Below, one piece after another: positions 3,349-20,807 of a stretch of DNA of 64,000 nt. The notes under the pieces are model-generated. The model did no database searches. It saw only the letters and a program-made list of their open reading frames with translations, and was not told the origin of the DNA. Positions within the stretch are counted from its first letter, which is position 1; every line of letters begins with the position of its first letter. Origin of the DNA: Paenibacillus lutimineralis (GTDB lineage: Bacteria; Bacillota; Bacilli; Paenibacillales; Paenibacillaceae); the NCBI RefSeq assembly GCF_003991425.1, contig NZ_CP034346.1:3757501-3821500 (forward strand). Reading direction: 5' to 3'. Both the position numbers and the translations under genes were made by a program.

Positions 3349-6300
3349 TTATAACTGCATCAAAATTTGCGGATCCTTGATTTTGTTATCTTCGGCTAGC
3401 AACACGACCTTGGACAGTACTTCAGCCGTTCTCGGGTCCTCATCCATAAACGGCAAGAACAACCGTCCGCGATGCTGAGAGTGCACTGGAATAATGTTCA
3501 ATGCCCCGGTTCCTTGTTTGTATGCTATGCCACTACCAAGATGAATAGCGTATTCCCCAAGCTTGCCTTCGATGTGAGCAAAATTGCCGTCCAGTCTCAC
3601 CTTATCCAGCTTGAGCAGACGTAAGGACTCCTCCACGATCACTTTTCGCAGTTCGATCGTCGTCAGGCTCGCCTCCGGATCCACGCCTCCGACATGCGCT
3701 GTGCTGACAACAAGATCGATGTCTCGCATCGTTTCTGAGAACAAGATCGGTGGTACCTCAGCTATAGGAATATGTTTATACGTTTTCCGGTCGAGGAACT
3801 CCACCGCCTCCAACGTCGGAGCTTCTGTATCCGCAGGCGAGAACCAATCCGCCATCGCATAGACCGTAGCGATAATATTTTCCCGATAATGCACCTTTTG
3901 CAGGCCCGATTCGTAGTTGACTGTCCAACCGCGTCCGCGCAACAGCGCTACCGTCTTGCTTGGCTGTACCTGGTGCCCGGCATAACGCTGCGATCCAGTC
4001 TTGCCTGCTCGTTCATCTTCGTTCACAAGATACAGCTCGCGGAATACTTGCTTGAACGGCTGCCGGATGCCACGGGAGAACAAATCGCGTTGATAGTCGC
4101 TCCATTCGCCGCTCTCGTAAAGATCCAGTGGATGGGCAATCGTCAGCTGATCCTTGTCTGCAAGCACCCAGGCATCGCCGGACGGTTCAACCAGTCGCAA
4201 AGTACCATCCTCTGTTGCCGTGAAATATCCAAGCTGCTGATCCGCTTTGAACACTAACGCAGCAACTAGCGGACGTAGCACCGGACTCGCTGACAAGGCC
4301 GCCAGTTCACTAGCGCGGAAATAACTTTGCTCTGCCATAGAACGCTCTAATTCCCGCTTTGCACGACGGTATTGATCTGTCAACTCCGTCTTAGCTTGCT
4401 TGAGCTGCTCAATATAAACGTTCTTCTTGAATCTCGCCGGTACCGATTTTAGCAACTTCCCTTTGCTAGTTACTTCTAATTCGGCTTTACCTTCTTCGTC
4501 CACCGTCAGGTGCACATTTGTATCTGTATCCAAAGCGTATGGCTCAAAAAGACCGGCCAATTGCTCCAGCATGCGAGCTTCCATATCCCAAGTCAGCCGA
4601 ATCACATCGGCGTATCCAGCGCTACGAGCCAGATTGCCAAGTGCAATTTGCCCGGCCGTACCTTCGCTCGCACGCCGCTGTGCACCGAATCCCCTACTCT
4701 GCTTTAAGAATTCCTGAATAAAGTTATATCTCTCGCGTAAATCCTGCTCCGGATTAGATGCAAACGGGATCAAACTGTACGCCAGCAAATGCTCCTTATT
4801 CCGCTTATCGATGACGGATCTCTTCATGTCATCGAGACGCAATTGTCCGAGCACGGCATCGGCAAACAATTGTGAGCGGCGGTGATTGGATCCTGCGGAA
4901 ATATACTTTGCGCAATCATATAACTGGCGGAAGCGTTCTTCACCTATGGTGCGATATGCTTCATTAAACCAATTGACGTCAAATGCTCCATCGTTAAAGT
5001 CCTGCGGCGTAATCGGTGAGTAATGGGCGACAATGGTCTCCTTTTCCGCTGAGAAGCTCTCATTGATATGGGCATGGAAATACCAAGCCGCGCTGCGAAG
5101 CCCCTCCCAGCCCAAATACTTGGCTACAATTTCGATCCATTGCGGTGCATACATAGCAGCTTCAAGCAGAAGCTTCTCCGTGATTCCCGTTCCCTGGAGC
5201 AATTGCCCTAGCTTCTCCTCATCCTCCCCATCACGCGGATAACAAATCTTCAGGAGATGGCTGAGCGACTCCTTCTTCGTCGTCTGGTTACTGTAACCAT
5301 AAATATATCCACGAACAAACGTCTCACCGCGCAAGCTCGTCAGTATACGGATCAATGGTTCCATACCATAAATACGCTCGAAAGACATCGTGAACTTAGT
5401 GGCATCCGTTGACAAATCGCCGCGAGCAAGCTCAATATCAAGTAGACGAGATACGATTCGCTCACGCAGCTCGATCAGCTGCTCTTGTCGATTCACCAGT
5501 GTATCCCGTGGTGAGGTCAGCTCACGCATGTGACTACGTGCATCCCCGCCAAGTAATTCCTTGAACAATTCGTTCTCTCCGATCAACTCCAGCAAAAATG
5601 CTCTGAAATATTGGTCTACATCAAGAATCGAATAACGATCCTCCTCATCCATTTCTCCTCTCCGCAGATCATATTGAACCGCCGTTCGGAAGAAAGAGCG
5701 GAATGACTCCACATCATGGACACGGCTCTGCAAAATGGAATACAAAGGATCTGCCGCCACTAGCCACACGGGTTGATCCTGCTTCTCCAGCTGTTTCACA
5801 TCGCTCGTCATCACTTTGATCAGAGCGGCTTCCGCCAACTCATACGTGTCGCCTCTCTTGCTGTCGATAAAGCAAGCAGACACCAACGTCATCACCTGTT
5901 GGGTATATCGCAGATCATCCAACATTTCCAATACTTCCAGGATGCTCTCCAGCGGCAGATGCTGTTCCAGGAATTGTCTCCGTCCGCCCTCTAAAAGCTT
6001 GGTCTTCCTCATTAGATCGTAGTCAAAAACATCGGAAAAATGACTGTAGAATGAATCTACTCCATACTTCAGATTTTTCATTTGCAGAGTGAGATGAAGT
6101 CCCATTAGCTCCTGTGTGCTCACTCCACTCTCTTCATAAAACTTCTGCCACTTCTCAGCTAAAGGATAATGCTGCAGTTCACTTCCTGTCTCGAAGTGAT
6201 CGTGATCCAGCACCTCCCTCCAATTCTTGTACGATATAGGCCTTAACTCAGCTCCGATGAGCTTAGATTCTTTATGGCCACTGTAATACTCAACCTCGTA

Positions 6301-8340
6301 TTCGGTATCACGATATTCATGCACCAACTCATCCAATCCATGCAGAAACTTGCTTGCTCGTTCTGTAGAGACCATCAAAATTTGCCTCAGGTCTACCCCA
6401 GATACATCTCGCTGCTCCAGCAGCCAAGCCTCCGTCTGCTGCGGATCGTAAAGACCAAAGCCGTTCTCGGCGCTAAAACCGTTGTCCTGCTTCAATTTAT
6501 CAAGCAGCTGTCTTTCCTTAGGCGACGGACTCGTGATGCGATCTGCCCACGGCTTCAACTGTTCGTATTGCTCCGCGCGATCCTGATCGTCTTTGAGCTC
6601 TGTTAATAATTCAAGTCCAGCAAGACGCTGCAACTCACCTTTAGCCAACAACAGCCGTTCTAGACTTAGGGACAGCAATTCTCCTGGCTGATGCAGGAGG
6701 ATATCGATGGCATTCTGCCGTAGTGATCCTGTCTTAAGCTTAAGCAAGTCTTCAACCAGCTTCTGCTCGTTCCCATGCAATGTCAGCTTCTTCACTTGGC
6801 GTAGCGCATGCTCGCGATTGGTCATGCTCTTATCGGAGAGGGAAGCGAAAATAAAAGCCCGCTGCTTCTCAGAACTAGAATCACCTGCGAAATAATTGAT
6901 CAAATCGCCCCTCAGATCTGGACTCATTTGCGCAGACATATCAATCAGCTCGGCGATCCACTCAGAGTCCATATCGTAAGCGGTCAAATATAACATTTTG
7001 CGCAGTACCAGATCAGAGGAATAGTGGAATCCCGCAAAATCAAGCACTGCCGATACGCCCGATTTCTCCTTCACTGGAACCGCTTTGAGAATCGCTTTGA
7101 AACGCTCAAATTCCTGCTTTCTTGTTACCTTATCTTCCAACGCAGGCGTGCGCTTGACCTTCAGAACACGCTGCTCGATCCCGCCAACATGCCATTCATA
7201 TTCATAATCGTAGCTATAGTTCTGCAATATCCAATACAACAGCTCCGGATCATTCTCATTCAAGTTGTTCCGAGCAATTTCAAACTTCACGGCCTGGTTC
7301 TGACTGTTCGCCAGTACATATTGAGCGACTACCTTCTGATAGTACTCACCGTTCTCCATCAAATACTTGATCTGTTCCGGAAGTACCTCTTCCTCATGAA
7401 CAGCGGAAGCCCAGAGGCTAATGTATACCTGATTGGCATTTGCGGAAGTAAGCCACTCTCGACGCTGCTTCTCATCAGTAAGCGCGGTATAAGCCTGCAG
7501 TAACAGTTGGCCTGCCACACGTTGATTTGCTGCTTCCAGCCCCATGCCGGTCCAGGTACCAAGAGCACGCACAATCGAGCTGAACCGGAACAAGTCGTGA
7601 TCCAAAATAACTTTCAGCAAATACAAATTCGCCTGTAGCGTACCCGCATCCATCTGCTCGGCAATCGATTGGCGAAGTCCTTCCTGCAGCCGTGCTGCGA
7701 TAAGCAACTCTCCAACCATCGTATATACATCCTCGCGATGGCTGATCAGAATCCCCTTGATCATTTCAGGCTTAAGGAGAGCCGTCTGGTTATCGCCATA
7801 AATGATCTCTCTTAGCGTCTCTTCTACCCAGCCATCACCATGGTCGAGTTCATAAGCAATCAAATCTGGAATCACTCGATTGATCCAGTAGATCCGCTCG
7901 ATGGTATAATCCGGTTTAGTCAGGTAATCCCGTAGCGAAAACTGCAAAGATTCGGCAGCGAAGAGTTCTTTGATTTTGCCAAGAATCATGTTCAAATGGA
8001 CTTCAGGCCGCTGTGTTCTGAACGGTCTCCGGTAATACCCACTCGCATACGGAAACTCAACCGCATGCCGGATAATGTAATTTACCATTTCTGCCGTCTT
8101 CTCGTCAGTCAGAGCAAGCATCGTTTGCTCAAGCGGATCATAGAAGCTATCCGGCCGTTTGCCACTGAGCCTAGTCAATTCCTTATACAGTGCCATATAT
8201 TCATCACTATCGGAATTAATATAAGGCTCACGAATGAGCTTGTATAATTCCCGAACCACCGTATCCTCGCCTGCCTCGGTCTCTTTGACCCTAGCTTCGA
8301 TCGCTGTCCAATATTGTTCTTCCTGAGTCAGAGCCTTCAT
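3349..8340 (-). CDS. giant DUF4132 (MolR/YehI-type) protein
   Basis: A 1663-residue soluble protein with no signal peptide or membrane helix. The N-terminal ~1100 residues are largely helical and repeat-like, suggesting a HEAT-type scaffold. The C-terminal ~450 residues match the DUF4132 pattern known from E. coli MolR and YehI, with a conserved tail around residues 1560-1663 (IELRKVIVEESLRLLKLDKV, then HLGSGIAYKQGTG and GRLFLPFMDEDP). The start ATG is preceded by GGAGGGAG. It is 15 bp downstream of a small beta-grasp-like gene, so the two are probably one operon. In MolR a WGR domain is fused to DUF4132; here a WGR-like domain is on a separate gene at 19710. The biochemical role of DUF4132 is unknown. 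Confidence 0.8.
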   Translation of the reverse strand: MKALTQEEQYWTAIEARVKETEAGEDTVVRELYKLIREPYINSDSDEYMALYKELTRLSGKRPDSFYDPLEQTMLALTDEKTAEMVNYIIRHAVEFPYASGYYRRPFRTQRPEVHLNMILGKIKELFAAESLQFSLRDYLTKPDYTIERIYWINRVIPDLIAYELDHGDGWVEETLREIIYGDNQTALLKPEMIKGILISHREDVYTMVGELLIAARLQEGLRQSIAEQMDAGTLQANLYLLKVILDHDLFRFSSIVRALGTWTGMGLEAANQRVAGQLLLQAYTALTDEKQRREWLTSANANQVYISLWASAVHEEEVLPEQIKYLMENGEYYQKVVAQYVLANSQNQAVKFEIARNNLNENDPELLYWILQNYSYDYEYEWHVGGIEQRVLKVKRTPALEDKVTRKQEFERFKAILKAVPVKEKSGVSAVLDFAGFHYSSDLVLRKMLYLTAYDMDSEWIAELIDMSAQMSPDLRGDLINYFAGDSSSEKQRAFIFASLSDKSMTNREHALRQVKKLTLHGNEQKLVEDLLKLKTGSLRQNAIDILLHQPGELLSLSLERLLLAKGELQRLAGLELLTELKDDQDRAEQYEQLKPWADRITSPSPKERQLLDKLKQDNGFSAENGFGLYDPQQTEAWLLEQRDVSGVDLRQILMVSTERASKFLHGLDELVHEYRDTEYEVEYYSGHKESKLIGAELRPISYKNWREVLDHDHFETGSELQHYPLAEKWQKFYEESGVSTQELMGLHLTLQMKNLKYGVDSFYSHFSDVFDYDLMRKTKLLEGGRRQFLEQHLPLESILEVLEMLDDLRYTQQVMTLVSACFIDSKRGDTYELAEAALIKVMTSDVKQLEKQDQPVWLVAADPLYSILQSRVHDVESFRSFFRTAVQYDLRRGEMDEEDRYSILDVDQYFRAFLLELIGENELFKELLGGDARSHMRELTSPRDTLVNRQEQLIELRERIVSRLLDIELARGDLSTDATKFTMSFERIYGMEPLIRILTSLRGETFVRGYIYGYSNQTTKKESLSHLLKICYPRDGEDEEKLGQLLQGTGITEKLLLEAAMYAPQWIEIVAKYLGWEGLRSAAWYFHAHINESFSAEKETIVAHYSPITPQDFNDGAFDVNWFNEAYRTIGEERFRQLYDCAKYISAGSNHRRSQLFADAVLGQLRLDDMKRSVIDKRNKEHLLAYSLIPFASNPEQDLRERYNFIQEFLKQSRGFGAQRRASEGTAGQIALGNLARSAGYADVIRLTWDMEARMLEQLAGLFEPYALDTDTNVHLTVDEEGKAELEVTSKGKLLKSVPARFKKNVYIEQLKQAKTELTDQYRRAKRELERSMAEQSYFRASELAALSASPVLRPLVAALVFKADQQLGYFTATEDGTLRLVEPSGDAWVLADKDQLTIAHPLDLYESGEWSDYQRDLFSRGIRQPFKQVFRELYLVNEDERAGKTGSQRYAGHQVQPSKTVALLRGRGWTVNYESGLQKVHYRENIIATVYAMADWFSPADTEAPTLEAVEFLDRKTYKHIPIAEVPPILFSETMRDIDLVVSTAHVGGVDPEASLTTIELRKVIVEESLRLLKLDKVRLDGNFAHIEGKLGEYAIHLGSGIAYKQGTGALNIIPVHSQHRGRLFLPFMDEDPRTAEVLSKVVLLAEDNKIKDPQILMQL

Positions 8341-8355
8341 AATCTCCCTCCATGT

Positions 8356-8772
8356 TCACCATAGTCCTCCCGCCAGCATCGTAAAGCGCATAAATACGAT
8401 ACGATCCCCTTCCTGGGTCGCTAGTGGAGCATCCAAATCCTCAATTTCCGTCTCATTGATAAACACCCGATACAAGCCATCTGCGAAAGCAGTCAATGCC
8501 GCACTCACCGCTTGCTCAGGATCAGCCTGCCTATCATCGTAAACCGTTCCAAAGCCTACCTTGCCCTGTTCTGCGCTTTCCCCGATCTGCGTCTCCGTTA
8601 TGTAGGGAATTACATTCTTCTCAGACTGGCGTTCCTTAAACGCCTGAACTCCCCCTTCCACAACCCCGGTAATCAATTCTCGGAGGGTTTGTGGAATGCC
8701 AGGCAATTCAAGCTCTTGGGCCACAAGCTCCTTGCGTTTACCCGGTTTTTTCACTGTTACGGTCAGTTTCAT
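8356..8772 (-). CDS. small beta-grasp-like protein with near-terminal Gly-Gly
   Basis: A 138-residue protein, taking ATG at 8772 (MKLTVTVKK) because AGGGGGG sits eight bases upstream. A GTG at 8790 and an ATG at 8778 are alternatives. The C-terminus reads VFINETEIEDLDAPL, GDRIVFMRFTMLAGGLW. This resembles the last strands of MoaD/ThiS/ubiquitin-like proteins, which end in a loop with Gly-Gly, though here two residues (LW) follow. It is directly upstream of and probably co-translated with the DUF4132 gene. The fold assignment is inferred from pattern only; I see no E1-like activating enzyme in the window. Confidence 0.6.
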   Translation of the reverse strand: MKLTVTVKKPGKRKELVAQELELPGIPQTLRELITGVVEGGVQAFKERQSEKNVIPYITETQIGESAEQGKVGFGTVYDDRQADPEQAVSAALTAFADGLYRVFINETEIEDLDAPLATQEGDRIVFMRFTMLAGGLW

Positions 8773-9216
8773 CTGCATTTCCCCCCTCACTTACATATTC
8801 CACTGACATATGATCCGATTCCCTATTTGGAACAATATGTATCGAAAAAATTCATATGCACGAAATTCATTACGTCCTATTCCTATACAGAAATTAGCTA
8901 AACAAAGCGTGATCCTGATTCAAAAATAGTATAATGCTTGGCAAGTTATGTAATCAATTTCTATCATTCACGGGAACGTTAAACAATCCTTTGGACCCAG
9001 GTTGGTTAGTTGGATTTACCTAGCCTTCTCTTGCAACTGTTGTCACAAATAATCGAAATTAACTATATGGCATCATATATTTTCATAGAAACTTTCTTGA
9101 GTAGTAAAACGTTAAAATAATAAGGTTGCTGGAAGCCACGCTTACATCTTTACTTGCGGGTGATTCCCTCTTTTCTCGAACTGCATATCTTACATATTCG
9201 AAAGGAAGTCCAAACG
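8773..9216. other. divergent intergenic region, start signals only
   Basis: About 440 bp separate the minus-strand beta-grasp/DUF4132 pair from the plus-strand MORN gene. It must carry promoters for both. The only clear element is a TATAAT at 8930-8935, without a good -35 at 17 bp. No small gene or known RNA is visible. Confidence 0.4.
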
Positions 9217-9948
9217 ATGAAAAAAATCATTGCCTTATCTCTGTCCGTAGCTCTTTGCACAGCTTTGGCCACTGTGTCGCTCATTCCCGCTTCTTCCACA
9301 GCGCATGCAGCGGCAACAAAAGAATTAGTTCAAATTTCGAAGCAAGCCCAATACTATGGTGAAGTCACAAACGGAGCACCTAACGGACGCGGTACGATCC
9401 ATTGGGGGGACAACAAGCAATACTCGGGCGATTTTGTGAATGGCAAGCGCGAAGGCAGCGGTAAATATATCAATGAATATACGCAGGACGGCGATCAGCA
9501 TAAAGTGGTCTATAACGGGGCTTGGAAGCAGGATAAAATGGAAGGCAAGGGAACTTTGACTCATAAAGTGATCCAGGAAGACGGCGAGGTCATATGGAAT
9601 GAAATCCAAACGGGTACATTTAAAAACGGGGTGCTTCAAAATGGTTATGATGTGATTCACGCCCAGGCAGACCCGGATTATAGCTTTACCTATAAAAATG
9701 GAAATGAGAAGCTGGAAATCCTGGGTACAAATTCCGGACTAAAAGAATCACTGCAAAAAGGCACACTGTTCAGCATTAAATACCGTAACGGCTCGATCAA
9801 TAAATTATATTCAAGCTTTCCAGCAGATACTAAATCCGAACAACGTAAATTAGACGATGCATTGAAGTACTTAAAGGGGATCCAGAAGAAGCTGAACCCT
9901 CACATGGATGAATTCGAACGTTTGTCCAAACAAGTACCGCTGAACTAA
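9217..9948 (+). CDS. secreted MORN-repeat protein
   Basis: A 243-residue protein starting at ATG 9217, preceded by AAAGGAAG. An upstream in-frame ATG at 9154 is less likely because the 9217 start gives a perfect signal peptide (MKKIIALSLSVALCTALATV) with cleavage near AHAAA. Residues about 45-120 hold MORN-type repeats (YYGEVTNGAPNGRGTIHWGD, YSGDFVNGKREGSGKYI, YNGAWKQDKMEGKGTLTH). MORN repeats are surface or lipid/protein-binding modules. The rest is lysine-rich and unrecognised. It is the only plus-strand gene inside the island and splits it into two minus-strand blocks. Confidence 0.8.
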   Translation: MKKIIALSLSVALCTALATVSLIPASSTAHAAATKELVQISKQAQYYGEVTNGAPNGRGTIHWGDNKQYSGDFVNGKREGSGKYINEYTQDGDQHKVVYNGAWKQDKMEGKGTLTHKVIQEDGEVIWNEIQTGTFKNGVLQNGYDVIHAQADPDYSFTYKNGNEKLEILGTNSGLKESLQKGTLFSIKYRNGSINKLYSSFPADTKSEQRKLDDALKYLKGIQKKLNPHMDEFERLSKQVPLN

Positions 9949-9971
9949 CAATATAACTTGATCTCCAATAT

Positions 9972-9999
9972 AGAAGCTGCGCAATTAAGCGCAGCTTCT
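9972..9999. terminator. bidirectional hairpin after the MORN gene
   Basis: Perfect arms AGAAGCTGC and GCAGCTTCT around a short loop. The T content after it is modest. It lies between the convergent ends of the MORN gene and the metallophosphoesterase gene and could serve both. Confidence 0.65.
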
Positions 10000-10061
10000 A
10001 TTAGATTTGATACGGATATCCACGCCCCCAATATTACAAATCCTTTCATCCTGCCATCTTC

Positions 10062-10940
10062 CTAATCCAGCACCGCAGCTGTGAAGATATAAGCACGACC
10101 ATCCGCATTTAGAACCTGCGGACCGTCATCTAGTTCAGCCAGCCCCTGTTCCCAATGAATATGCCCACAGCAGACTAATGGGACAGGAGCCCCCTCCAGC
10201 TCTTCGAAAATATCCGGGTTGCCTGGTAGTCCATGCGCTTCGATCTTTGGGCTTTCATGAAGCAGTAGAATATCAGGCCCCTGCCTGACAAGCCGACGCA
10301 AGGTTTCCAGATAATCAGCTTCCGCGATGCGGTTAGGTTTGTCCGTCCTGCCAATGATCCCTCCTAGCCCTGCTATGGTCAGCCCGCCGTATGTAAACTT
10401 ATCTACATCAGAGAAAAAATGAATTCCTGCCGTAGAGGATAATTCGTCTATCCCCGCCTTCGTCAAGAGATCATGATTCCCAGTAACGCCTGTCACGAAC
10501 CCGAAATATTTGCGGAAAGCTCGCCATACGGGAAGTGGATCGCCGCTGGCCCCCCTTCGGGCTAGATCTGTAAATAAATCGCCGCAAAGGCATACCATCA
10601 CCTTGGCCGGGTCCAAGTCCGGCAAATGGATTTGCAGCAAGAGCGCCAGCATCTCCGCTAGTTCTTCGCCCAGCAGCTTCTGCGCGCCTCTCGCAGATTC
10701 CACCACTTGATTAGCTTCCTGGCCCTCTACACTACTATGCCCCGCGATCCCCTGCAAATCAGAAGCGATAACCAGCGCATCCCATTCTTCCGGCAGCCCA
10801 ATCATCTCACCCCAATAAATTGGGAGCCATTCGTAGGATATGCCTGCTCCTCGGGAAGCGGCAGTGATATAAGGAATTCTCTCCAAGGGTTCTCGGGCGA
10901 TGTCTACAATTTGCAGCGATCTCTTGCTATGTTTCTTCAT
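10062..10940 (-). CDS. calcineurin-type metallophosphoesterase
   Basis: A 292-residue cytoplasmic protein. The metal-binding motifs appear in order: SDLQG (60-64), GDLFTD (120-125), GNHD (154-157), LLHES (227-230) and GHIHW (259-263). The usual D-x-H of motif I is D-x-Q here, which may change metal preference. AGGAGG precedes the ATG. It ends the minus-strand block that begins with the kinase and ligase genes. In known bacterial RNA-repair systems (Pnkp/Hen1) the 3'-end phosphatase is of this superfamily, so a role in trimming RNA ends is possible. The substrate is not shown by the sequence. Confidence 0.85.
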   Translation of the reverse strand: MKKHSKRSLQIVDIAREPLERIPYITAASRGAGISYEWLPIYWGEMIGLPEEWDALVIASDLQGIAGHSSVEGQEANQVVESARGAQKLLGEELAEMLALLLQIHLPDLDPAKVMVCLCGDLFTDLARRGASGDPLPVWRAFRKYFGFVTGVTGNHDLLTKAGIDELSSTAGIHFFSDVDKFTYGGLTIAGLGGIIGRTDKPNRIAEADYLETLRRLVRQGPDILLLHESPKIEAHGLPGNPDIFEELEGAPVPLVCCGHIHWEQGLAELDDGPQVLNADGRAYIFTAAVLD

Positions 10941-10964
10941 CGCAATGCCTCCTGCTAAGTCCTG

Positions 10965-11762
10965 TTACAGATAGCGGCCGAAATAGTACTCTACCTTTTC
11001 ATGTGAATACCCGTCTTCCCCTCTCCAGGTGGCCATCGACATAAAATCGGTCCCCCGCCCGCGCTCTTTACGGTAATCATCCTTCGATTCCAGCAGGCCC
11101 GCATATCCCCAAATCTCCATGATTACGTCACGTTCATTCTTATTCGCAGGAAAAATATCTTTCCATCGTTTCTCCAGCTGCCGAGCGGCATCCTTATCTT
11201 CGCAAGAATCAATGGCTTCAATCATTCGCTTTAAGATTTCCACATCTGCATCACTGACAGTAAACGGATCTTCCTTGCTAAGACATTCAAGGTCCAGCAG
11301 GCAGTATACCAGCCAGTTCAAGCGGATGCCTCCCCATTTCACCCGTTCGAAATTCTGAACATTCAGACCCTCATTAACATACTCCTTATTTGACATCAGT
11401 TTATGGTCGTTACAATCCCCGCAAGCGCTGTACGACCGCTGTTCCGCTGGCCGCTCAGCGTAAGTATGCATAGGCAGATCATAGGTAAGAGCCCAGCTTG
11501 ACAAAGCGCTTCGCAAATGGACTTTTCGCGTAGACAAGCTATGCAAAAAAGCCTCAACAATAACATCTTTTGTGAGAACTTCTTGATGGAGCTGCCGCAG
11601 CCTTTGCACACATTGATCATGCGACAGGTTTAAGGGGTCGAACATGAGTCCGTGGCTCTTGGCATACTGAAAATCTTCCTCTGTATAGGTATATCCCCCT
11701 CTTCTCCAACCTCCAGATTGCCAGAAGGTATCGAACAGGATTTTCTTCGCTTTCCGATCCAT
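10965..11762 (-). CDS. unrecognised island protein with a CxxC motif
   Basis: A 265-residue soluble protein that I cannot assign. It has a single CGDC motif near residue 113, many aromatic residues and a helical second half. There is no signal peptide or membrane segment. The ATG at 11762 has AAGGAG upstream with a rather long spacer of about 13 bases. It is 24 bp from the metallophosphoesterase gene and 59 bp from the zinc-ribbon gene, consistent with one operon. Confidence 0.65.
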   Translation of the reverse strand: MDRKAKKILFDTFWQSGGWRRGGYTYTEEDFQYAKSHGLMFDPLNLSHDQCVQRLRQLHQEVLTKDVIVEAFLHSLSTRKVHLRSALSSWALTYDLPMHTYAERPAEQRSYSACGDCNDHKLMSNKEYVNEGLNVQNFERVKWGGIRLNWLVYCLLDLECLSKEDPFTVSDADVEILKRMIEAIDSCEDKDAARQLEKRWKDIFPANKNERDVIMEIWGYAGLLESKDDYRKERGRGTDFMSMATWRGEDGYSHEKVEYYFGRYL

Positions 11763-11821
11763 AGATAATAAATATCTCCTTCCTTAGCGCCGATTTGCCT
11801 TATTTCGCATAGAGATCCGAT

Positions 11822-13117: not shown

Positions 13118-13152
13118 ACTTCCTCTGCCCTCCTCCTAATAACTTTAGGAAT

Positions 13153-13818
13153 TTATTGTTTTACAGCTGCGAGCCATGCTTCCTTGACCGAGATCGGGCT
13201 TTTGCTACTGTTCTGCCCGTCCCCTTCTTCCGACCACAGCGGCGGGTAGTAACTCAGTACTTGATCGGACTCCAACTGCCTGACTTGCTCCTGCCAGCCT
13301 TTCCAGCGGAAGGTTTGGTAGAACTGCTCCAGATCTCCATCGGCCAGCCACGCCATAAATCCGGAATAAGCTAGCTCGGTTGACTCCCATTCCAGCGTGT
13401 CCGGAGCAAAATAATAGATTAGACCGGTACCTTCATATCGTCCTGTATCCAAGGCGAAAAAACCGCCTGCAGCATCGTAGGCTACAACCAGCATTCCCTC
13501 CAAGGGAGCAAACTCTAGATCATTCTTATGAAGTCCATTCCAAGAAGTCAAACTGCCGCATATTTCAGCTCTACCAGCTCCAAGCAGAGTAATCCATCCT
13601 TCATCAAACAAGATCCCTCCGGTCCGGTAGGCGACACTCCCTAAGTAGGATCGGGTGCTCACTTGCAAAGCGTATAAAGTCTCCTTAGCTGTATCTAACT
13701 CTGCTGGTATAATTCTGTAGGTATTTGCACTGTCTTTCAGCATTTCGCTAAGTTCGACCCATGAATCATTTTCAGCATCTATAAGTTCTTCGATGGGTTT
13801 TTTAGATTCATTTAACAT
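13153..13818 (-). CDS. DUF2625 family protein
   Basis: A 221-residue protein matching the DUF2625 pattern over most of its length: TLYALQVSTRSYLGSVAYRT, GGILFDEGWITLLGAG, VAYDAAGGFFALD, YYFAPDTLEWE and FYQTFRWKGW. AGAGGACC lies directly before the ATG. The biochemical function of DUF2625 is unknown. Its neighbours on both sides are in the same direction with gaps of 35-55 bp, so it is likely part of the same transcript. Confidence 0.8.
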   Translation of the reverse strand: MLNESKKPIEELIDAENDSWVELSEMLKDSANTYRIIPAELDTAKETLYALQVSTRSYLGSVAYRTGGILFDEGWITLLGAGRAEICGSLTSWNGLHKNDLEFAPLEGMLVVAYDAAGGFFALDTGRYEGTGLIYYFAPDTLEWESTELAYSGFMAWLADGDLEQFYQTFRWKGWQEQVRQLESDQVLSYYPPLWSEEGDGQNSSKSPISVKEAWLAAVKQ

Positions 13819-13873
13819 GGTCCTCTTGTTTCACCTTCTTCTTGATTCCTTCGGTCAGGCTCTTCCAGACTAC

Positions 13874-15547
13874 TTATCTCATCCAGGCCAGCAGTATCTG
13901 CAGCTTGTCCTTGAGTGGCGATGTTTCTTTCTTCGCACGCTGCGCGAGCTTGCTGCGGCTGCCAAAAATCCGGTAAAGAACGTATTCACGCTGATAGTCT
14001 TCCTTTGCTGCAAGCTCATGCACAAGTGCGTCCGCCAGTTCCAGGCTGTCGATGACGATATTTTTAACTGCCCCTGCCGACTCATTGCCTCCCAGTAAGA
14101 TAGATATCAACACTGGCATCTGTTGCACGGAAAGCCCATGTGCTTCCACAAAAGCCTCCGCATATCCGTCCTGAACCGATTGATGCTCCGTATCCACCAA
14201 TTCCATGTACCGCTGCACGAGCGGGTAATAGACTTCGCTGTACAATCCCAATCCAAACACTGCATAGGTTCCGGGCATTGCCGACTTCTCGCCGGGCTCC
14301 ACATCCCCGTACCAGGCGAATTCCTCCAAAGCAGCTTCCACATATTTCGCTACGCGCGGAAACAAGTCTGGGTACTGGACGCAATTGGCAAAAAATTGAT
14401 GCTGCTGCGATTTCGCCAGCTTTTTAACCGGTAAATAGTTTTTGGCTTTGCTTCGTAACGTAAGCTTATAACCTTTGGGGAATCCTTGTTCCAACAGCGA
14501 GATGACATAATCCAGCGCTTCGCGGTAGGCCGCTTCCTCTTCAGACGCAATTCGGATGTCGATCGTCTGCAAAATATCATTCGCTTTGCCTTGGAACAAG
14601 CTGCCTTGCCGCATGCTTTCATACCGTCCGCTGCCCTGCTGCAAATAATTTGCTGCCTGTTCCGATCCGAGCTGCTTGGCAAGTTCAAGATATTCCTTGC
14701 GAGTGTCCGGCTTTTTACGGCCAATCTGCAGCGCCGCATATAGGAAAAATTCTATTGCATCGGCATTCGGCAGGCTAGCCTTGGCTCCTTCTTTAAGCAG
14801 CCATTCATGCCCGAAATTCCCGGTTCGGTCAAAATACCGCTCCAAAAACTGTTTTTCCGCCCACTCTCTTAAGGCTGAAGTATACTGATAGGACCACTGC
14901 TCCAAACGGCTGCGGTTCGCACGATGCTTGTCGTTCAGACGCTGAATTAACGGATCTATAATGTCAGATTTCTGCGCAAAAAACTGCGGATTAAGTAAAT
15001 GGCGCGCAAAGAAAAACTCATCGTCTTCGTTCGGTCGCACTGGCAGCTCTGCCAGTACCTTGGATTGGATAAACGCAGCGAGTTCCTGCTTCAGCACTTG
15101 AAGTTTATGCTCATTGATTAGCACCTCTTGACGGTGCTGCGCGGCAGACCCCCGCTCCAATTCCAGAATCAGTTCCATTCGGTAATCGAAAAACCGGCTG
15201 CCATATCGATCGGATTGAAAAGTCTCTTCTACTTGCGCACGTAAAGCGGAATAAAGTTCCTCCAACAGCGCTTCATCCTTCATTTCCAGCAAACCTTCAA
15301 TATAAGAACCTGCTTCTACCGTATAAGAGCTATCGCTCCAATCAAAGGGTTCATATAAATCGATATATATCGTTCCGTATCCGCCGCCTTGCTGTTCGTT
15401 CTTCCACGAGACTTTAAAGTAATCGTTCACCCCAGCCTGAAGCCGGCTACGATTTTTTAACTCTTGAATTCTTTTGCTTTCCCGCTCATAGACCGGGATA
15501 ATCTGACTCCATACATCGTCAAGAAAAGCTTCGACATATTGATTCAA
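13874..15547 (-). CDS. large unrecognised helical protein
   Basis: A 557-residue protein that I cannot assign with confidence. It is charged, mostly helical, with no signal peptide or membrane helix; residues about 130-170 have coiled-coil character. I place the start at TTG 15547 (LNQYVEAFL), seven bases after GGGGAG. A TTG at 15553 is closer to the ribosome binding site than usual. It lies in the middle of the island with short gaps on both sides. Confidence 0.65.
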   Translation of the reverse strand: MNQYVEAFLDDVWSQIIPVYERESKRIQELKNRSRLQAGVNDYFKVSWKNEQQGGGYGTIYIDLYEPFDWSDSSYTVEAGSYIEGLLEMKDEALLEELYSALRAQVEETFQSDRYGSRFFDYRMELILELERGSAAQHRQEVLINEHKLQVLKQELAAFIQSKVLAELPVRPNEDDEFFFARHLLNPQFFAQKSDIIDPLIQRLNDKHRANRSRLEQWSYQYTSALREWAEKQFLERYFDRTGNFGHEWLLKEGAKASLPNADAIEFFLYAALQIGRKKPDTRKEYLELAKQLGSEQAANYLQQGSGRYESMRQGSLFQGKANDILQTIDIRIASEEEAAYREALDYVISLLEQGFPKGYKLTLRSKAKNYLPVKKLAKSQQHQFFANCVQYPDLFPRVAKYVEAALEEFAWYGDVEPGEKSAMPGTYAVFGLGLYSEVYYPLVQRYMELVDTEHQSVQDGYAEAFVEAHGLSVQQMPVLISILLGGNESAGAVKNIVIDSLELADALVHELAAKEDYQREYVLYRIFGSRSKLAQRAKKETSPLKDKLQILLAWMR

Positions 15548-15616
15548 ACGCAACTCTCCCCTTATTGACCTACGTATAGGCTTACTACTTCATCTCCTGC
15601 TTCTCCCTTGTTTATG

Positions 15617-16684
15617 TCAGCCGATCGTCTCGACGACGTTGCCCTCTTGATCTTTAATATGAGTCTTTATGATTTGGAACAAAAGCCCTGGCAGTGAAGC
15701 CAGTCCAAACTCGCTTTCCAGTGGTACCAGCCTTTGACTGAGCTCGGTGGCAGCTTCTTGATTCAAACGAATACTGACTTCCTTATCCTCCATACGAAAC
15801 TCGGCACTTTCTCCTGGCTCAAATACAACACGGATTTCTTGACTCACAAGGGTAAGACTTCTTTGTTTTAATATCCGTCCACGCAGCAGTTTGCCAATGA
15901 TTCCAGCCTGCTTCGCTCCGAGCTTCACGCGATCCGGCTGTTTGTTGAACCATCCTTTCTTCCCTGGCTCCCAGCCCAACTGATCCACGAATAAAAAGCC
16001 AGTATTAGAGCCTTCCTGCTCTATCCCCTGTTCAACCGCCTCAGCAATCGCCGGAACCTCTAAAAGAGAATCACGCGTTAAATCCGTAACATAACCTGGA
16101 ATCTGTGCCAAGCCTGCTTCAAGCACGCCTAATGTATTCCAAGTCTGCATGGCCTCAAGCTCATCGACTGTAATGCCAACCATTTGAATAAATTCCAAAT
16201 GACCATTCGGTGTCTCAATCGTCGGTAGTTCCGGGTCGAGTGTAAAAGCAAGTGCGGTGAGTAGCGTATCCGCGCCAAGGCAGATGGGGCCATTGGCATC
16301 CAAATAATCACCGGAGCGGAACACATTGCCGCTGCCGAACACGTATCTCCCCATATTTTGCAGCAAATTGAGCGCCCATGCGGGAGGCTCTTCCTCGTCT
16401 TCATTCCGCACAAGCCGAAATGTAAGTTCAAACCCGTAACCGCTGTACTCCGCATTCTCCAATTCTTTCTCATACAGTTCCGAAAATCCATACGTGACAA
16501 AATGCCAATGTGGCACTGGCGTCTCGCTTTTGTAGGCGCTAATACCATCGAGTGGATCCTCGCCTCCAAGTGAATAGGGAATCATCGTCCCATAATGCTT
16601 CAGCTCTTGCTCCCCGTAGATTTTACCTAATTCCTGATCAATCGCATCCCAGCCGGATGTATTTTCTTCTACTTCTTCGCTCAT
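15617..16684 (-). CDS. suppressor-of-fused domain protein
   Basis: A 355-residue protein; the ATG at 16684 is preceded by AGGAGG at good spacing, so a longer N-terminal reading to 16759 is unlikely. The sequence YGTMIPYSLGGEDPLDGIS, VPHWHFVTYGFSELY and GYGFELTFRL, followed by PPAWALNLLQNMGRYVF, is typical of bacterial suppressor-of-fused (SUFU) proteins such as YqcF. Bacterial SUFU domains act as antitoxin or immunity modules in several systems. No cognate toxin gene is visible beside it. Confidence 0.85.
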   Translation of the reverse strand: MSEEVEENTSGWDAIDQELGKIYGEQELKHYGTMIPYSLGGEDPLDGISAYKSETPVPHWHFVTYGFSELYEKELENAEYSGYGFELTFRLVRNEDEEEPPAWALNLLQNMGRYVFGSGNVFRSGDYLDANGPICLGADTLLTALAFTLDPELPTIETPNGHLEFIQMVGITVDELEAMQTWNTLGVLEAGLAQIPGYVTDLTRDSLLEVPAIAEAVEQGIEQEGSNTGFLFVDQLGWEPGKKGWFNKQPDRVKLGAKQAGIIGKLLRGRILKQRSLTLVSQEIRVVFEPGESAEFRMEDKEVSIRLNQEAATELSQRLVPLESEFGLASLPGLLFQIIKTHIKDQEGNVVETIG

Positions 16685-16783
16685 CACTTTGCCTCCTATG
16701 TATTTATGACTAATTGAATATAAGATCGTGTTCAGAAAGATCGGTTTTCTTATCAACACTGGGCTTTTTGAACTACCTTTAAA

Positions 16784-17593
16784 TTACGGTAATTTTCGAA
16801 CGCGTTGCTTGGGCTTTTGAGTCCGCCAGGCCACCAGAATCCCGGCTTCGCCTAATATCTGATTCACAACCGTAAGATGTTCAACCGGTATTTCCCATAC
16901 GAAATGACTGCCGAGCGGACGGAGCGACCCTCGTTCTTCGTCATCTTCAATCCAGTCTCGCAAGGTCGGGCCATCTCCCTGCCCCGCGATATGAATTTTC
17001 ATATGCTTCTCACTGAGAAGATTATATGGATACACCATCCGCAACATGCTTTCTGTGTATCGACCCTGTCCCTGATAGGTTCCTGGCGCTTCGTGAATAA
17101 AAGCGAAGCCGTTCTCATAAGGAAACATGGTGGCACCGTTTTCTCCCGCCGCGTAGTACATTGCTTTCGTAATTCTATCTACCGTATATACAATGCCGTA
17201 TGGTACATCAAACCGCTGTGCAGCACTGTTAGTCCACTCCGTTATCGCTCCATATATCTCTTCAAGCTTACTGTCGCAATGGGCCCCGATATGCGGAAAA
17301 CTACCATATTCACCGGTCTGATATGTAAAAGCAGCGTCCCAGGGTCGCCCTCCACGTACATCGCTGTAAAGCCAATAAGAACTTGTCAACCCGTTCTCGA
17401 TCCTTGCCTTTAGTTCCTCCAAGGATACCTCGAATAGATCATGATCCCCTTCATGGTCCCCATCCTTTATATGCTCATAATAAGTGGCTCCGGTAATCGG
17501 CATGCCAATGGCATCAAAATAAGACTTCCCGGCTTGCAAGGCATCCAAAGGATGAATATGAAGAGTGTCGTAAAGCGAAACTCCTGTGCACAA
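16784..17593 (-). CDS. unrecognised island protein
   Basis: A 269-residue soluble protein of unknown family. The start is TTG at 17593, eight bases after a perfect AGGAGG. It has acidic segments and many aromatic residues (TYQTGEYGSFPHIGAHCDS, AMYYAAGENGATMFPYENG), which gives it the look of immunity-like proteins, but I cannot name a family. A palindromic repeat separates it from the RNA ligase gene upstream, which may or may not break the transcript. Confidence 0.65.
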   Translation of the reverse strand: MCTGVSLYDTLHIHPLDALQAGKSYFDAIGMPITGATYYEHIKDGDHEGDHDLFEVSLEELKARIENGLTSSYWLYSDVRGGRPWDAAFTYQTGEYGSFPHIGAHCDSKLEEIYGAITEWTNSAAQRFDVPYGIVYTVDRITKAMYYAAGENGATMFPYENGFAFIHEAPGTYQGQGRYTESMLRMVYPYNLLSEKHMKIHIAGQGDGPTLRDWIEDDEERGSLRPLGSHFVWEIPVEHLTVVNQILGEAGILVAWRTQKPKQRVRKLP

Positions 17594-17628
17594 AAATAAT
17601 CACCTCCTATTCAGGCTCAGATGTTTTT

Positions 17629-17813
17629 CTAACGAAACTACAAACCGCTATTGCCTCAAATACAAGCTAAAATCGAATCTAACGAAACTACAGAACGTTA
17701 TTTAGGGTAAAAACAAGCACTATGCCCCCATTTTAGGTCAATAGCGATACCCCGTTTCGTTAAAATTTTCAGATTTCCTTTCTAGCCCCCATAGCGATAT
17801 CTAGTTTCGTTAG
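17629..17813. repeat. palindromic repeat, copy 4
   Basis: Same plan as the other copies: forward units starting at about 17629 and 17679, inverted units ending in GTTTCGTTAA and AGTTTCGTTAG, total 185 bp. Internal sequence is the most diverged of the four, while length and unit spacing are kept. It lies between the RNA ligase gene and the next gene of the same strand. Confidence 0.8.
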
Positions 17814-17878
17814 AACTCATGTTTTGGGTACTTCTACTCAGAATTACATGATCAACACCTCTTTCTTTATCAACAACT

Positions 17879-18523
17879 TTATTCCGCCGCTACCTCGGTA
17901 AGCAGGTTCGATTCAACCTGTTTGCTTAACCAATGTTCATCGGTTTGAACATGGTTTTTACGGACGAATTTGGCTACGGACCGTTTGAAATCCTCATACG
18001 CAAAGGCAGATGCCAGCCTGACAACGTATCCTTCTTGTTCTCCGCCGCAGCGAGACTGTGTGGTATAACACGCCTTAGCCGCTTCCTCGCTCCAAATTCC
18101 TCGGTACAGCACAGGAACTGTCGACAAATTGAGCCGTGCCGCCAAATCTACTGTCTCATCCCAAGACAGGCAAATATTGTGCTCATTCCATACGGAGAAC
18201 AGCATGAAATAACTTGGCAGAGCCGAATAATACAGGGAATGCTTCGCGTACACATTCTCACCGCATAACCGATGTCCTTCCGGAATCAGGTATTTAATGC
18301 CGCCATGCAGCGTTTTTACGTAATGCCGGGATGAATGGTCCTTACTGTCCAGCGATCTGGCATGAATGAAATCTGGATACATGGTCGTATTTTCGCCGTC
18401 CATTTTTTCAGTAATAACGACTTCTCGCCCTACAAAATGATCGGTATTTCGTAAAATCTTATCATCATCGGTATACCCGCGCGACCATGGCAGATGCATC
18501 GTTTTCGGATATTTGATTTTCAT
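17879..18523 (-). CDS. RNA ligase of the Rnl2-like nucleotidyltransferase family
   Basis: A 214-residue protein with all core ligase motifs. Motif I is EKMDGENT with the adenylated lysine at residue 40; motif III is in LCGENVYAKHS to YFMLFSVW (87-112); motif IV is EGYVVRL (164-170); motif V is VAKFVRK with Lys185. ATP-dependent RNA ligases of this family seal 3'-OH and 5'-phosphate ends. AGAGGTGAT precedes the ATG. It lies 44 bp downstream of the kinase-HD gene, which would supply the 5'-phosphate, so the pair reads as a repair module. It is a compact ligase without an extra C-terminal domain. Confidence 0.9.
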   Translation of the reverse strand: MKIKYPKTMHLPWSRGYTDDDKILRNTDHFVGREVVITEKMDGENTTMYPDFIHARSLDSKDHSSRHYVKTLHGGIKYLIPEGHRLCGENVYAKHSLYYSALPSYFMLFSVWNEHNICLSWDETVDLAARLNLSTVPVLYRGIWSEEAAKACYTTQSRCGGEQEGYVVRLASAFAYEDFKRSVAKFVRKNHVQTDEHWLSKQVESNLLTEVAAE

Positions 18524-18567
18524 AGATCAATCACCTCTTTTCTATCAGGATGCTGCAGCATCCTCAT

Positions 18568-19524
18568 TTAGCAAAGGAATCTGCTTCGGCAAAAAAAATA
18601 GAGCTCCGCCAGCCGATCCTCGCCAAGCAAATGATAAATTCGGGACGCACCAGCATCACCGCCGTGCAAGATCTCCATATGGAAGCTGACCATATTCACA
18701 ACATGCAGAATAAAATCGTCTTCATAGCCAAGCTCATTCAGCACATGGCAAGCTATCATTGCAGACACATGCTCGTGCCCGTAATACGAGTAGTACCCGC
18801 GCATCTCTTTCCATACTTTGCAGAACGGTTTACCCGCGTCGTGGAATACAGCTGCAAGCTGCATCGCCAGCAAGCTGTCGCCTTCATAGAAGACATTGAT
18901 ATAATCCAGGACGGCATAGGTATGCTCGGATAGGGTTTTGGAATGATGCGGATTCTCTTGATCATATCCCAGCATGACCCGAAAATGGGGCGAACTTGCT
19001 AAATAAGCAAACAGTTCATCATGCCCCGCCTGTTCCGCAAGCAACTGCTCTAGCCTGGGTCGATCGAGATCCGTCTCTGCCGTAGCATGAATCAGATGCA
19101 ATGCTTGAAATCCTTCACCTAAAACAGGGAATTCGAAGTTTTTGGCAAACTTGGTGAGCACCGTGTCGCTGATCCGTCGCTTTCTTCCCTCGATTCGTTC
19201 CTTTGCTAGCGCAAAAGGAGTATCAAAAACGTGGCACTGGACCGGGAAGTCTTTGAAACGTTTCAAAAACTTGAGACGCCGATCCCGACTGACATTCGTG
19301 GCATCAAAGACCACATTTCTGCCCGTCCCAAACGCCTGCTCTATCTCTGCAAAGGCCTCATCAAAAACCAAATACGTGTTTTTCTGCTTCGACTCGCTGC
19401 CGAACAATCTTTCCCGAATGGAATCGGTCGCTACCAGCACTGCTTTTTCCCGCTTGGTTAATTCTTTGGCATAATAGCTTTTCCCGCTACCCGGAATACC
19501 GACCAGCATATGAATCACACTCAT
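18568..19524 (-). CDS. polynucleotide kinase fused to HD phosphohydrolase
   Basis: A 318-residue two-domain protein. Residues 9-16 form the P-loop GIPGSGKS. DSIR (34-37) matches the Asp/Arg pair that binds the 5'-OH end in T4-type kinases, and DATNVSRDRR with RKRR follow. The second half is an HD domain with His201, FHDAGK (His228-Asp229) and GHEH (249-252). The likely reaction is 5' phosphorylation of RNA plus removal of 3' or cyclic phosphates. The ribosome binding site AAAGGAGGTGAT is near perfect. The last residues come from a run of eight T: with one T fewer the end would read YFFAEADSFAK, the expected HD-family ending, so the 3' end is probably frameshifted. Confidence 0.88.
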   Translation of the reverse strand: MSVIHMLVGIPGSGKSYYAKELTKREKAVLVATDSIRERLFGSESKQKNTYLVFDEAFAEIEQAFGTGRNVVFDATNVSRDRRLKFLKRFKDFPVQCHVFDTPFALAKERIEGRKRRISDTVLTKFAKNFEFPVLGEGFQALHLIHATAETDLDRPRLEQLLAEQAGHDELFAYLASSPHFRVMLGYDQENPHHSKTLSEHTYAVLDYINVFYEGDSLLAMQLAAVFHDAGKPFCKVWKEMRGYYSYYGHEHVSAMIACHVLNELGYEDDFILHVVNMVSFHMEILHGGDAGASRIYHLLGEDRLAELYFFCRSRFLC

Positions 19525-19663
19525 CGCTATATCACCTCCTTTCCAGCAGCCCTATGATCAGTATATAGGAAGCATTTTACGAAACACACGGGACCTGCGA
19601 CGCATCGACCTCGGCCTTTTCACCTGAATTTTCCTGTTTATGGTCTGTATGGTCCTACTTTCA

Positions 19664-19672
19664 TGGTATAAT
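19664..19672 (+). promoter_or_regulatory. extended -10 promoter of the WGR-like gene
   Basis: TGGTATAAT, an extended -10, lies about 38 bp before the ATG at 19710. There is no strong -35. The 185-bp gap also has to hold the promoter of the divergent kinase-ligase genes, for which I see no clear consensus. Confidence 0.5.
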
Positions 19673-19709
19673 TTGACGAATCTATAATGAAAAGGGGATT
19701 AGCCATCCT

Positions 19710-20807
19710 ATGAGAAGAATATTTCAAAATTCACATAGCCATAAAACCTGGGAAATCGACTATGACGGGAACCGCGTTGTCATGTCCAATAATGGAGGCA
19801 AGCCTCGCGAGAAGTTATTCGTCGATTCCGGTCAAGCGGCGAAATATGCGGAGAAAGAAATGTGGAGTAAACTTAAAAAGGGCTTCATTTATAGAAATTC
19901 CGAAGCTGCGCCGGGCACACCATTGTTCCACCTTTATATCGGGGCCGGTTACACCGGTTTTATGCCGCTGGCTGCTATTGCGGATACCAACCAGTTCTAT
20001 GCTGGATATGTGGTCGGCCAATTTGAAAAGGAAGAAATCTATCATCTGGACGAGCATGGGCAAAAACAGGTTACTTGGGAGTTGGCAGGTAATCATTTGA
20101 TCTATGATATGTTTTATTGTCTGGAAGCGGGCAAGCTTCTCATTAATGACAGCCATAAGATTTCAGGAATATCCATGGATGGAAGCGTTCGTAGCTACAC
20201 TTCATTTACATATCATAACAGCACGCTCTCCCTTTCGGGAAACCGTGGGCTTTGGTACGATGGATCTCATTTATTGATGACAGATCTTCTGACGCAGGAA
20301 CGCCTGTATCGGACTGAGGCAACACCAGAAATCGTTAATGGTCACAGTCCCCAGCTATGCGCCGCCTTATCGCGAGACGGGCGCTTAATGGCCTACTGTA
20401 CTCATCCTGATGATATTATCATTTGCGATATGGAGACAGGCTCTGCACATTCGATAGCCAAGGACATCAGTGCTATGACCACAGCCATGGATTTTTCAGC
20501 CGATAACCGCTACTTATTTACCCAAGAACAATACGGCTCATGGGAACTTGCATGCTATGATATGAACACTCTAACAAGACGGTCGGAGTGGAAAACCGAT
20601 CATGTTAGAAGCTTCGCCGTACATCCGACCAAACCACTACTGGCCATATTTAGCTTCGGAAAGGTTCAACTCTATCATACAGAGTCCTGGCAGCGAATAC
20701 TCGAATTCAAGCCAGAACATGTCGTGAAGAACTGCAAGCTGGTCTTTACTAAAGATTACTTGGCGTTGTATTCCGATTATGGTTGCATAAGCTTGTATGC
20801 CATCTAA
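19710..20807 (+). CDS. WGR-like domain fused to a beta-propeller
   Basis: A 365-residue cytoplasmic protein. Residues 1-63 (RRIFQN.., KTWEIDYDGNRVVMSNNG, then GFIY after a KLKKG helix) match the layout of WGR domains as in E. coli MolR, although the Trp-Gly-Arg strand itself reads SNNGGKP. From about residue 100 there are WD40-like blades (LSRDGRLMAYCTHPDDIIIC, DFSADNRYLFTQEQYGSWEL, FAVHPTKPLLAIFSFGKVQL). WGR domains sense or bind nucleic acid ends in PARP- and MolR-type proteins. The gene is divergent from the kinase-ligase genes, which supports a shared function. Confidence 0.7.
   Translation: MRRIFQNSHSHKTWEIDYDGNRVVMSNNGGKPREKLFVDSGQAAKYAEKEMWSKLKKGFIYRNSEAAPGTPLFHLYIGAGYTGFMPLAAIADTNQFYAGYVVGQFEKEEIYHLDEHGQKQVTWELAGNHLIYDMFYCLEAGKLLINDSHKISGISMDGSVRSYTSFTYHNSTLSLSGNRGLWYDGSHLLMTDLLTQERLYRTEATPEIVNGHSPQLCAALSRDGRLMAYCTHPDDIIICDMETGSAHSIAKDISAMTTAMDFSADNRYLFTQEQYGSWELACYDMNTLTRRSEWKTDHVRSFAVHPTKPLLAIFSFGKVQLYHTESWQRILEFKPEHVVKNCKLVFTKDYLALYSDYGCISLYAI

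Follow-up and report, generated by a model that had tools for sequence, protein, structure and literature searches.

A conserved kinase-HD and RNA ligase pair within a Paenibacillus lutimineralis gene cluster that probably comprises at least three independent units

Do thirteen closely packed genes of Paenibacillus lutimineralis encode one RNA-repair system, or several units set side by side? The genes occupy positions 3349-20807 of the 64-kb stretch of DNA analyzed here (C1:3757501-3821500 of genome G000, a single contig of 6.5 Mb), which we refer to as the window. Eleven lie on the minus strand, leaving a MORN-repeat gene and a gene for a WGR-like domain and propeller on the plus strand (Table 1). 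The initial annotation read the whole region as an RNA-repair island, in which a kinase-HD protein, an RNA ligase and a metallophosphoesterase heal and seal RNA ends, DUF4132 and helical-repeat proteins act as scaffold, and the remaining genes are new parts of the system. The genes it named are all present, and Pfam bears out its names for the DUF4132, MORN, Metallophos, DUF2625 and SUFU proteins. Our comparisons indicate that the locus is real as described, and that it probably holds at least three independent units rather than a single system. We have fair confidence in the explanation as a whole, which divides the region into a repair pair, an immunity-type array and a DUF4132 module.

From their sequences and modeled folds, the kinase-HD protein and the neighboring ligase are predicted with high confidence to constitute a two-gene nucleic-acid end-healing and sealing module. 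Domain content, conservation of catalytic residues, predicted folds and, within Bacillales, gene adjacency underlie this prediction. In agreement with the annotated P-loop kinase with an HD domain, the kinase domain matches Pfam AAA_33 (E 5.5e-26) and possesses the P-loop GIPGSGKS together with D34 and R37, catalytic residues of the T4 Pnk type; the HD domain is recognized at 19.9 bits (E 9e-4), just below the cut-off of 22, and carries the doublet H228-D229. The ligase had been credited with all core motifs; RNA_ligase is its one Pfam domain, and K40 (in K40-x-D-G), E89, E162, E164 and K185 are invariant among 10 aligned sequences. A PDB sequence search with the ligase returned no relative at E up to 10. 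Because the modeled kinase matches C. thermocellum Pnkp, which is likewise the closest solved sequence, and the HD part is structurally nearest to a tRNA-processing enzyme, a single kinase-HD protein may plausibly heal both ends of a break without the metallophosphoesterase.

The two genes also lie side by side wherever the ligase is intact in the family sample. The ligase is present in 16 of the 148 genomes of our family sample and intact in 15, and kinase-HD adjoins it in all 15. The same holds in 28 of 28 Bacillales loci from named genomes, where the kinase-then-HD gene lies upstream of the ligase; adjacency exceeds chance in both sets, which overlap in part (G037/L158, G061/L160). With catalytic residues conserved and the genes adjacent in every intact case, the annotated role of kinase-HD and ligase in end healing and sealing is supported. 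The nearest named relatives of the ligase, among the best 80 of at least 545 loci, are from Paenibacillus. Beyond the 15 ligase genomes, kinase matches are partial, confined to the kinase domain and found in four genomes (31-34% identity, E down to 1e-24 in two), and the window's own genome has an HD-only match elsewhere (E 7e-13).

Several individual copies deserve mention. The kinase-HD protein of the window ends in YFFCRSRFLC (18568-18610, minus strand), where 11 other alignment rows read YFFAE or YFFAQ; because the change begins at a run of T, a frame shift at the very end of the gene or a homopolymer sequencing error is suggested. Genome G136 has a 102-residue kinase remnant directly beside SUFU (C5:104751-106177) and no ligase match, and G032, of the same genus, has a ligase piece with a stop (C1:1884639-1884884). 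At Lysinibacillus L171 (6051-8523), a NADAR gene lies just upstream of kinase-HD, beside a nucleotidyltransferase-like gene and its partner, both recognized by eye; NAD/ADP-ribose genes therefore neighbor the pair there.

The arrangement of the healing enzyme differs in other bacteria. The split described here holds for the 80 named-genome ligase loci, of which 28 are from Bacillales and 52 are not, the latter including one Clostridia bin with no kinase nearby and two loci without a phylum in their title. In 39 of the 52, the nearest kinase domain lies downstream of the ligase and makes up the C-terminal part of its protein; none of the 52 has an upstream kinase within 3 kb of the ligase. The part of these 39 proteins that precedes the kinase can be aligned with the HD domain of Bacillales (Prob 97.8, E 1.2e-12) and the kinases align with one another (Prob 99.8), while swapped comparisons of HD with kinase between the two sets gave no match; Pfam calls HD in four of the five reversed-order proteins tested. 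An unrooted kinase tree of 149 columns recovers a Bacillales group (98/99) and an other-bacteria group (99/95), with phage kinase-HD proteins around both; it omits two non-Bacillales loci with kinase matches below 100 residues, viral kinase loci above L345 without a detected HD domain, and identical sequences. In the ligase tree (111 of 160 loci, with odd-numbered viral loci only and nine Bacillales loci left out), Bacillales again form one group (99/89), within a fork shared with phage ligases (90/93). A weakly supported split (29/73) has the Bacillales ligases and the phage fork on one side, where the nine non-Bacillales bacterial ligases are all without a nearby kinase; of the 43 on the other side, 39 have one. 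Since domain order and side of the ligase are both reversed, and the trees group accordingly, these data suggest that one ligase family was paired twice, separately, with healing enzymes of opposite domain order, a claim limited by the weak split and by the restriction to the best 80 loci.

Does the rest of the region belong to this module? Linkage was counted among family genomes carrying both genes in question, with the window's genome included where linked; random placement, assuming random gene positions and ignoring relatedness, would yield at most 0.1 per count. The metallophosphoesterase lies near the ligase in one of six such genomes, namely the window's own, and in four of the 28 Bacillales loci. 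The usual first motif of metallophosphoesterases is D-x-H; in 15 of 15 aligned copies of this protein, the window's included, it reads D-L-Q-G. As the HD domain can fill the role, we rejected the proposal that this protein is the needed 3' phosphatase of the core, and regard it as a sporadic member of the neighboring cluster and no required part of the repair pair. The scaffold role proposed for DUF4132 fared no better. The domain occurs in 46 of the 148 genomes, 10 of which also have the ligase, and it lies within 20 kb of the ligase in two of these 10 (the window's genome and G048); a beta-grasp or DUF4132 gene accompanies two of the 28 Bacillales loci. A literature search found no paper combining DUF4132 and RNA ligase.

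The constant companion of the DUF4132 giant is instead the beta-grasp gene, which adjoins it in 30 of 30 fetched loci, above chance, these being the best-scoring 30 of the 46 genomes. The annotated beta-grasp fold is supported by a model of medium confidence (pLDDT 73.8), the listed matches of which are mostly of ubiquitin, MoaD and Urm1 types (Foldseek E at least 0.03). Neither Pfam nor NCBIfam has a model that matches this protein, for which 166 relatives were found at E up to 0.001. Its C-terminus reads TML-(A/S)-G-x-x-W, in which the pattern T-M-L-x-G-x-x-W is invariant, and of the two glycine positions only the first is invariant in 25 sequences; a classical conjugated modifier was considered and rejected, since there is no C-terminal di-glycine tail. 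No tie of the beta-grasp protein to RNA repair was found in this analysis. MolR is a WGR-DUF4132 protein, and shares the DUF4132 domain with the giant of the window; the latter differs in its DUF5724-DUF4132-DUF7737 composition, in which no WGR domain is called, and in being paired with a separate ubiquitin-fold protein. We conclude that the two genes probably form a third, separate two-gene module, rarely near the ligase.

A different picture emerges for the genes between this module and the pair. Among family genomes that carry both the ligase and the cluster gene in question, SUFU sits no more than 10 kb from the ligase in 5 of 14, the DUF1963-like gene in 4 of 5, the 269-aa gene in 3 of 3 and the 265-aa gene in 2 of 7; DUF6138 lies within 20 kb in 6 of 15, and within 10 kb in 3 of 15. 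The cluster genes also recur together: of the genomes with both, 8 of 31 have the DUF1963-like gene no more than 10 kb from DUF6138, and 10 of 38 have the 265-aa gene that close to it. Genomes with fragments or partial or weak matches were dropped before counting (ligase 1 of 16, SUFU 5 of 49, 265-aa 4 of 48, DUF1963-like 6 of 43, DUF6138 2 of 57, DUF4132 2 of 48, 269-aa 2 of 6), as were further partial rows in genomes that were kept; all 18 phosphoesterase genomes were kept although three hold fragments. Among the 28 Bacillales loci, SUFU is the commonest cluster gene beside the pair (fetched flanks of 12), and at least one cluster gene accompanies the pair in 14, from Paenibacillus, Brevibacillus and Lysinibacillus. 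The order in Brevibacillus L163 and L164 is 265-aa gene, kinase-HD, ligase, SUFU, DUF6138; Lysinibacillus L169 and L171 keep the SUFU link, with ankyrin and DUF1963 genes between ligase and SUFU in L169. The cluster of a relative, L158, contains SUKH, ankyrin with DUF4274, and DUF1963 proteins, and the gene order of the close relatives L145 and L146 is nearly that of the window. Gene content varies across 11 genomes (two seen in part) and loci L145-L172, which represent species and not strains of one species. The view of the accessory genes as parts of the system therefore survives in part: SUFU, DUF6138, the DUF1963-like gene and the two unknowns recur beside the pair far more often than random placement would give and, as a group, do so in three genera, but most also occur in many genomes without it. 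The proposed gene-neighborhood check gave a similarly divided answer, in that the kinase-ligase pair and the SUFU group stay linked outside this strain, which the DUF4132, beta-grasp and WGR-propeller genes hardly do.

The layout of this cluster recalls polyimmunity loci, described in the available sections of PMC3482391 as same-strand, closely spaced immunity genes with no intervening toxins and variable content; SUFU, SUKH and ankyrin proteins are listed there as immunity families. Here too, unrelated genes, some of them putatively of immunity type (SUFU, SUKH-like and, in relatives, ankyrin), share a strand, are separated by short gaps, include no toxin and vary in content between species. 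In contrast to those loci, the genes are mostly conserved and single-copy, several have no immunity record, and an RNA repair pair stands alongside. Immunity likeness is clear for SUFU and weak for DUF2625 and for the DUF1963-like gene, the annotated name of which rests on a weak match under its cut-off; no immunity record was seen for DUF6138 or the 265- and 269-aa proteins. A Pfam scan of all 13 genes returned a single toxin model above cut-off, Zeta_toxin on the kinase, where AAA_33 scores far higher. Because layout and variability agree well but the match is not complete, we use the polyimmunity name as a likeness and not as membership, and with moderate to low confidence propose that SUFU, DUF6138 and the DUF1963-like gene, with ankyrin and SUKH proteins in relatives, form a reshuffling cluster resembling a heterogeneous polyimmunity locus.

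How far does the pair itself resemble described systems? Runella slithyformis HD-Pnk is reportedly an end-healing enzyme with an HD domain and a polynucleotide kinase. Deinococcus radiodurans encodes an HD-kinase, DRB0098, in an operon with an ATP-dependent ligase-like gene (PMC1997131, available sections). As here, a polynucleotide kinase is fused to an HD domain, and the Deinococcus operon includes a ligase-like gene; the HD domain is N-terminal there, whereas in the window and in all 28 Bacillales loci the kinase is N-terminal and its gene lies upstream of the ligase. A subfamily combining kinase and HD 3'-phosphohydrolase has already been proposed, in which the phage RM378 enzyme is the one with demonstrated 3'-phosphatase activity according to the same sections of PMC1997131. 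The RM378 enzyme joins a kinase to an HD 3'-phosphatase, as is predicted for the window's protein. Kinase-then-HD fusions occur in 37 of the best 80 of 173 viral kinase loci, yet the top viral matches spanning most of kinase-HD share 23-32% identity, and no such kinase lies within 3 kb of the ligase in any of the best 80 of 254 viral ligase loci. The Pnkp1-Rnl-Hen1 system mends ribotoxin-cut RNA by means of kinase, phosphatase and ligase (PMC4411300, available sections), activities that are predicted for the pair; here there is no Hen1, HD replaces a calcineurin-type phosphatase, and the proteins are two and short. Neither Hen1 (PF12623) nor RtcB (PF01139) was found in the window's genome, and they match in one and nine of 14 control genomes, respectively. 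As the kinase-HD subfamily, the D. radiodurans operon and Pnkp1-Rnl-Hen1 repair have all been described, the general kind of the pair is already known; within a limited literature search, its constant arrangement across these Bacillales loci and its association with immunity-type arrays seem less so.

We propose the following mechanism. The starting point would be a cut made by an RNase, probably a metal-independent ribotoxin, with 5'-OH on one side of the break and 2',3'-cyclic phosphate or 3'-phosphate on the other. Phosphorylation of the 5' end would fall to the kinase domain and conversion of the 3' end to OH to the HD domain; the ligase, adenylated at K40, would then seal the break in a substrate that would be RNA, possibly tRNA. 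SUFU, DUF6138, DUF2625, the DUF1963-like gene, the two unknowns and the metallophosphoesterase would constitute a reshuffling immunity-type array that blocks incoming toxins, leaving the repair pair to mend damage already done. A more specific proposal, which we offer only tentatively, is a combined ribotoxin-survival locus of Bacillales, in which a phage-type kinase-HD/ligase pair stands, in many species, beside SUFU, ankyrin, SUKH, DUF1963 and DUF6138 toxin neutralizers; prevention and repair would then be passed on jointly, and perhaps co-expressed. Such a pair would have been assembled independently, because the same ligase family in other phyla joins an opposite-order enzyme on its other side.

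Alternative readings can be set against these data. A single RNA-repair system spanning the whole 17 kb, in which the metallophosphoesterase served as phosphatase, DUF4132 and helical-repeat proteins formed the scaffold and the remaining genes were new parts, would account for the shared strand and short gaps, for the nearly unchanged order in L145 and L146, for the recurrence of SUFU and DUF6138 beside the pair, and for that of MORN downstream of the ligase. We rejected it on the linkage counts (two of 10 for DUF4132, one of six for the phosphoesterase); the neighboring genes are moreover present in many ligase-less genomes and HD can supply the 3' phosphoesterase, and we consider this reading very improbable. 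A role of the pair in mending DNA strand breaks, the function proposed for the HD-kinase operon of D. radiodurans, is also unlikely, though to a lesser degree. The ligase matches RNA_ligase and no other domain, the HD part is structurally nearest to a tRNA-processing enzyme, and the closest solved sequence is that of C. thermocellum Pnkp, an enzyme implicated in RNA repair (PMC1997131, available sections); yet mammalian PNKP is the top Foldseek match of the kinase, and in Deinococcus irradiation induces the operon, the kinase of which phosphorylates DNA (PMC1997131, available sections). DNA repair thus retains some probability, because the class also acts on DNA and that operon is radiation-induced, and we favor RNA as the substrate with moderate confidence. 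The pair might otherwise perform housekeeping RNA processing, such as maturing or circularizing a particular RNA, and share no more than a hot spot with its immunity-type neighbors. We doubt this: the patchy occurrence of the pair (15 intact in 148 genomes) and its remnants in G032 and G136 are more in keeping with a dispensable function, even if half of the Bacillales loci are without a detected cluster gene and the cluster genes are mostly conserved, single-copy and also present without the pair.

A number of observations weigh against the three-unit explanation. The pair's activities are predicted, and in D. radiodurans HD-pair mutants kept the measured 3'-phosphatase activity, possibly from a contaminant, and the ligase-like partner showed no ligation activity (PMC1997131, available sections). 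Cluster genes went undetected in the fetched flanks of 14 of the 28 Bacillales loci, some of these flanks being short, and the family-genome totals of SUFU (44), the 265-aa gene (44), the DUF1963-like gene (37) and DUF6138 (55 of 148) exceed that of the ligase (15). Genomes G079 and G089 carry a similar cluster with no ligase or kinase match. Many pair-less genomes have conserved and mostly single copies of SUFU (47-76% identity) and of the 265-aa gene (52-71%), which sets both apart from immunity genes that change fast. The available sections of PMC3482391 make no mention of DUF1963, and no toxin gene was identified near the loci, no systematic toxin search having been made. Finally, MORN homologs lie 8-15 kb downstream of the ligase in seven of 14 other intact-ligase regions (L049-L054, L056), six of them in one genus, a recurrence that the three-unit explanation leaves unexplained and that possibly reflects loose linkage or shared synteny.

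Table 1. Genes of the cluster, in window positions, with the basis of each assignment
Gene product	Position	Strand	Basis
Giant DUF5724-DUF4132-DUF7737 protein	3349..8340	-	Pfam
Ubiquitin-fold (beta-grasp) protein	8356..8790	-	Predicted model and fold search
MORN-repeat protein, signal-like N-terminus by eye	9154..9948	+	Pfam MORN
Metallophosphoesterase variant, first motif D-L-Q-G	10062..10940	-	Pfam Metallophos, E 1.1e-5
265-aa protein of the cluster, function unassigned	10965..11762	-	No family above cut-off
Protein with weak C-terminal DUF1963 match	11822..13117	-	Pfam E 0.0012, 19.7 bits against cut-off 23
DUF2625 protein, weakly SUKH-like	13153..13818	-	Pfam DUF2625 6.6e-76; SUKH_6 1e-4, below its cut-off
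DUF6138 protein, member of reshuffling cluster	13874..15553	-	Pfam 8.2e-242
SUFU-family protein	15617..16759	-	Pfam 1.3e-38
Rare 269-aa protein, function unassigned	16784..17593	-	Found in 4 of 148 family genomes
ATP-dependent RNA ligase, 214 aa, motif I EKMDGEN, K40	17879..18523	-	Pfam RNA_ligase 1.4e-33
Pnk-HD: N-terminal 5'-OH polynucleotide kinase, C-terminal HD phosphoesterase domain (predicted)	18568..19524	-	Pfam AAA_33, HD
WGR-like domain, then WD40-type propeller	19710..20807	+	PDB 2ra8 match; propeller matches below cut-off

The last gene of the cluster is probably a bystander. Residues 4-67 of its product match PDB 2ra8 (E 0.0013), which we take to carry a WGR domain, and the rest gives WD40/propeller matches below their cut-offs. 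This match agrees with the 'WGR-like' name, but Pfam does not call WGR in this protein. Among the 28 Bacillales loci, the gene stands beside the pair in L145 and L146.

Scans of the window added little to this inventory. Rfam returned a sole match, a PyrR-binding RNA motif at 2911-3023 (minus strand, 60.5 bits) upstream of an MFS transporter gene (1575-2780); no tRNA was detected, and promoter-like and terminator-like sites are rarer than in shuffled sequence. PADLOC, run on 10 of the 13 proteins, matched HD to Cas3 (best E 6.6e-7), gave a single phosphoesterase match (E 2.3e-6) and returned nothing else. Further along, at 23339-24931 (minus strand), lies a gene for an RCC1-repeat protein that also has a domain of the copper amine oxidase N-terminal type and an export signal, the latter recognized by eye.

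Separating these units would remove a misleading picture of DUF4132 and the phosphoesterase as repair factors, and would highlight a conserved, uncharacterized pair of ubiquitin-fold protein and DUF4132 giant. If the three-unit explanation is true, a Paenibacillus genome showing no RtcB or Hen1 would possess a compact RNA repair system, RNA repair would be tied to toxin-immunity-type arrays in three genera, and one ligase family would have been joined to healing enzymes of opposite domain order.

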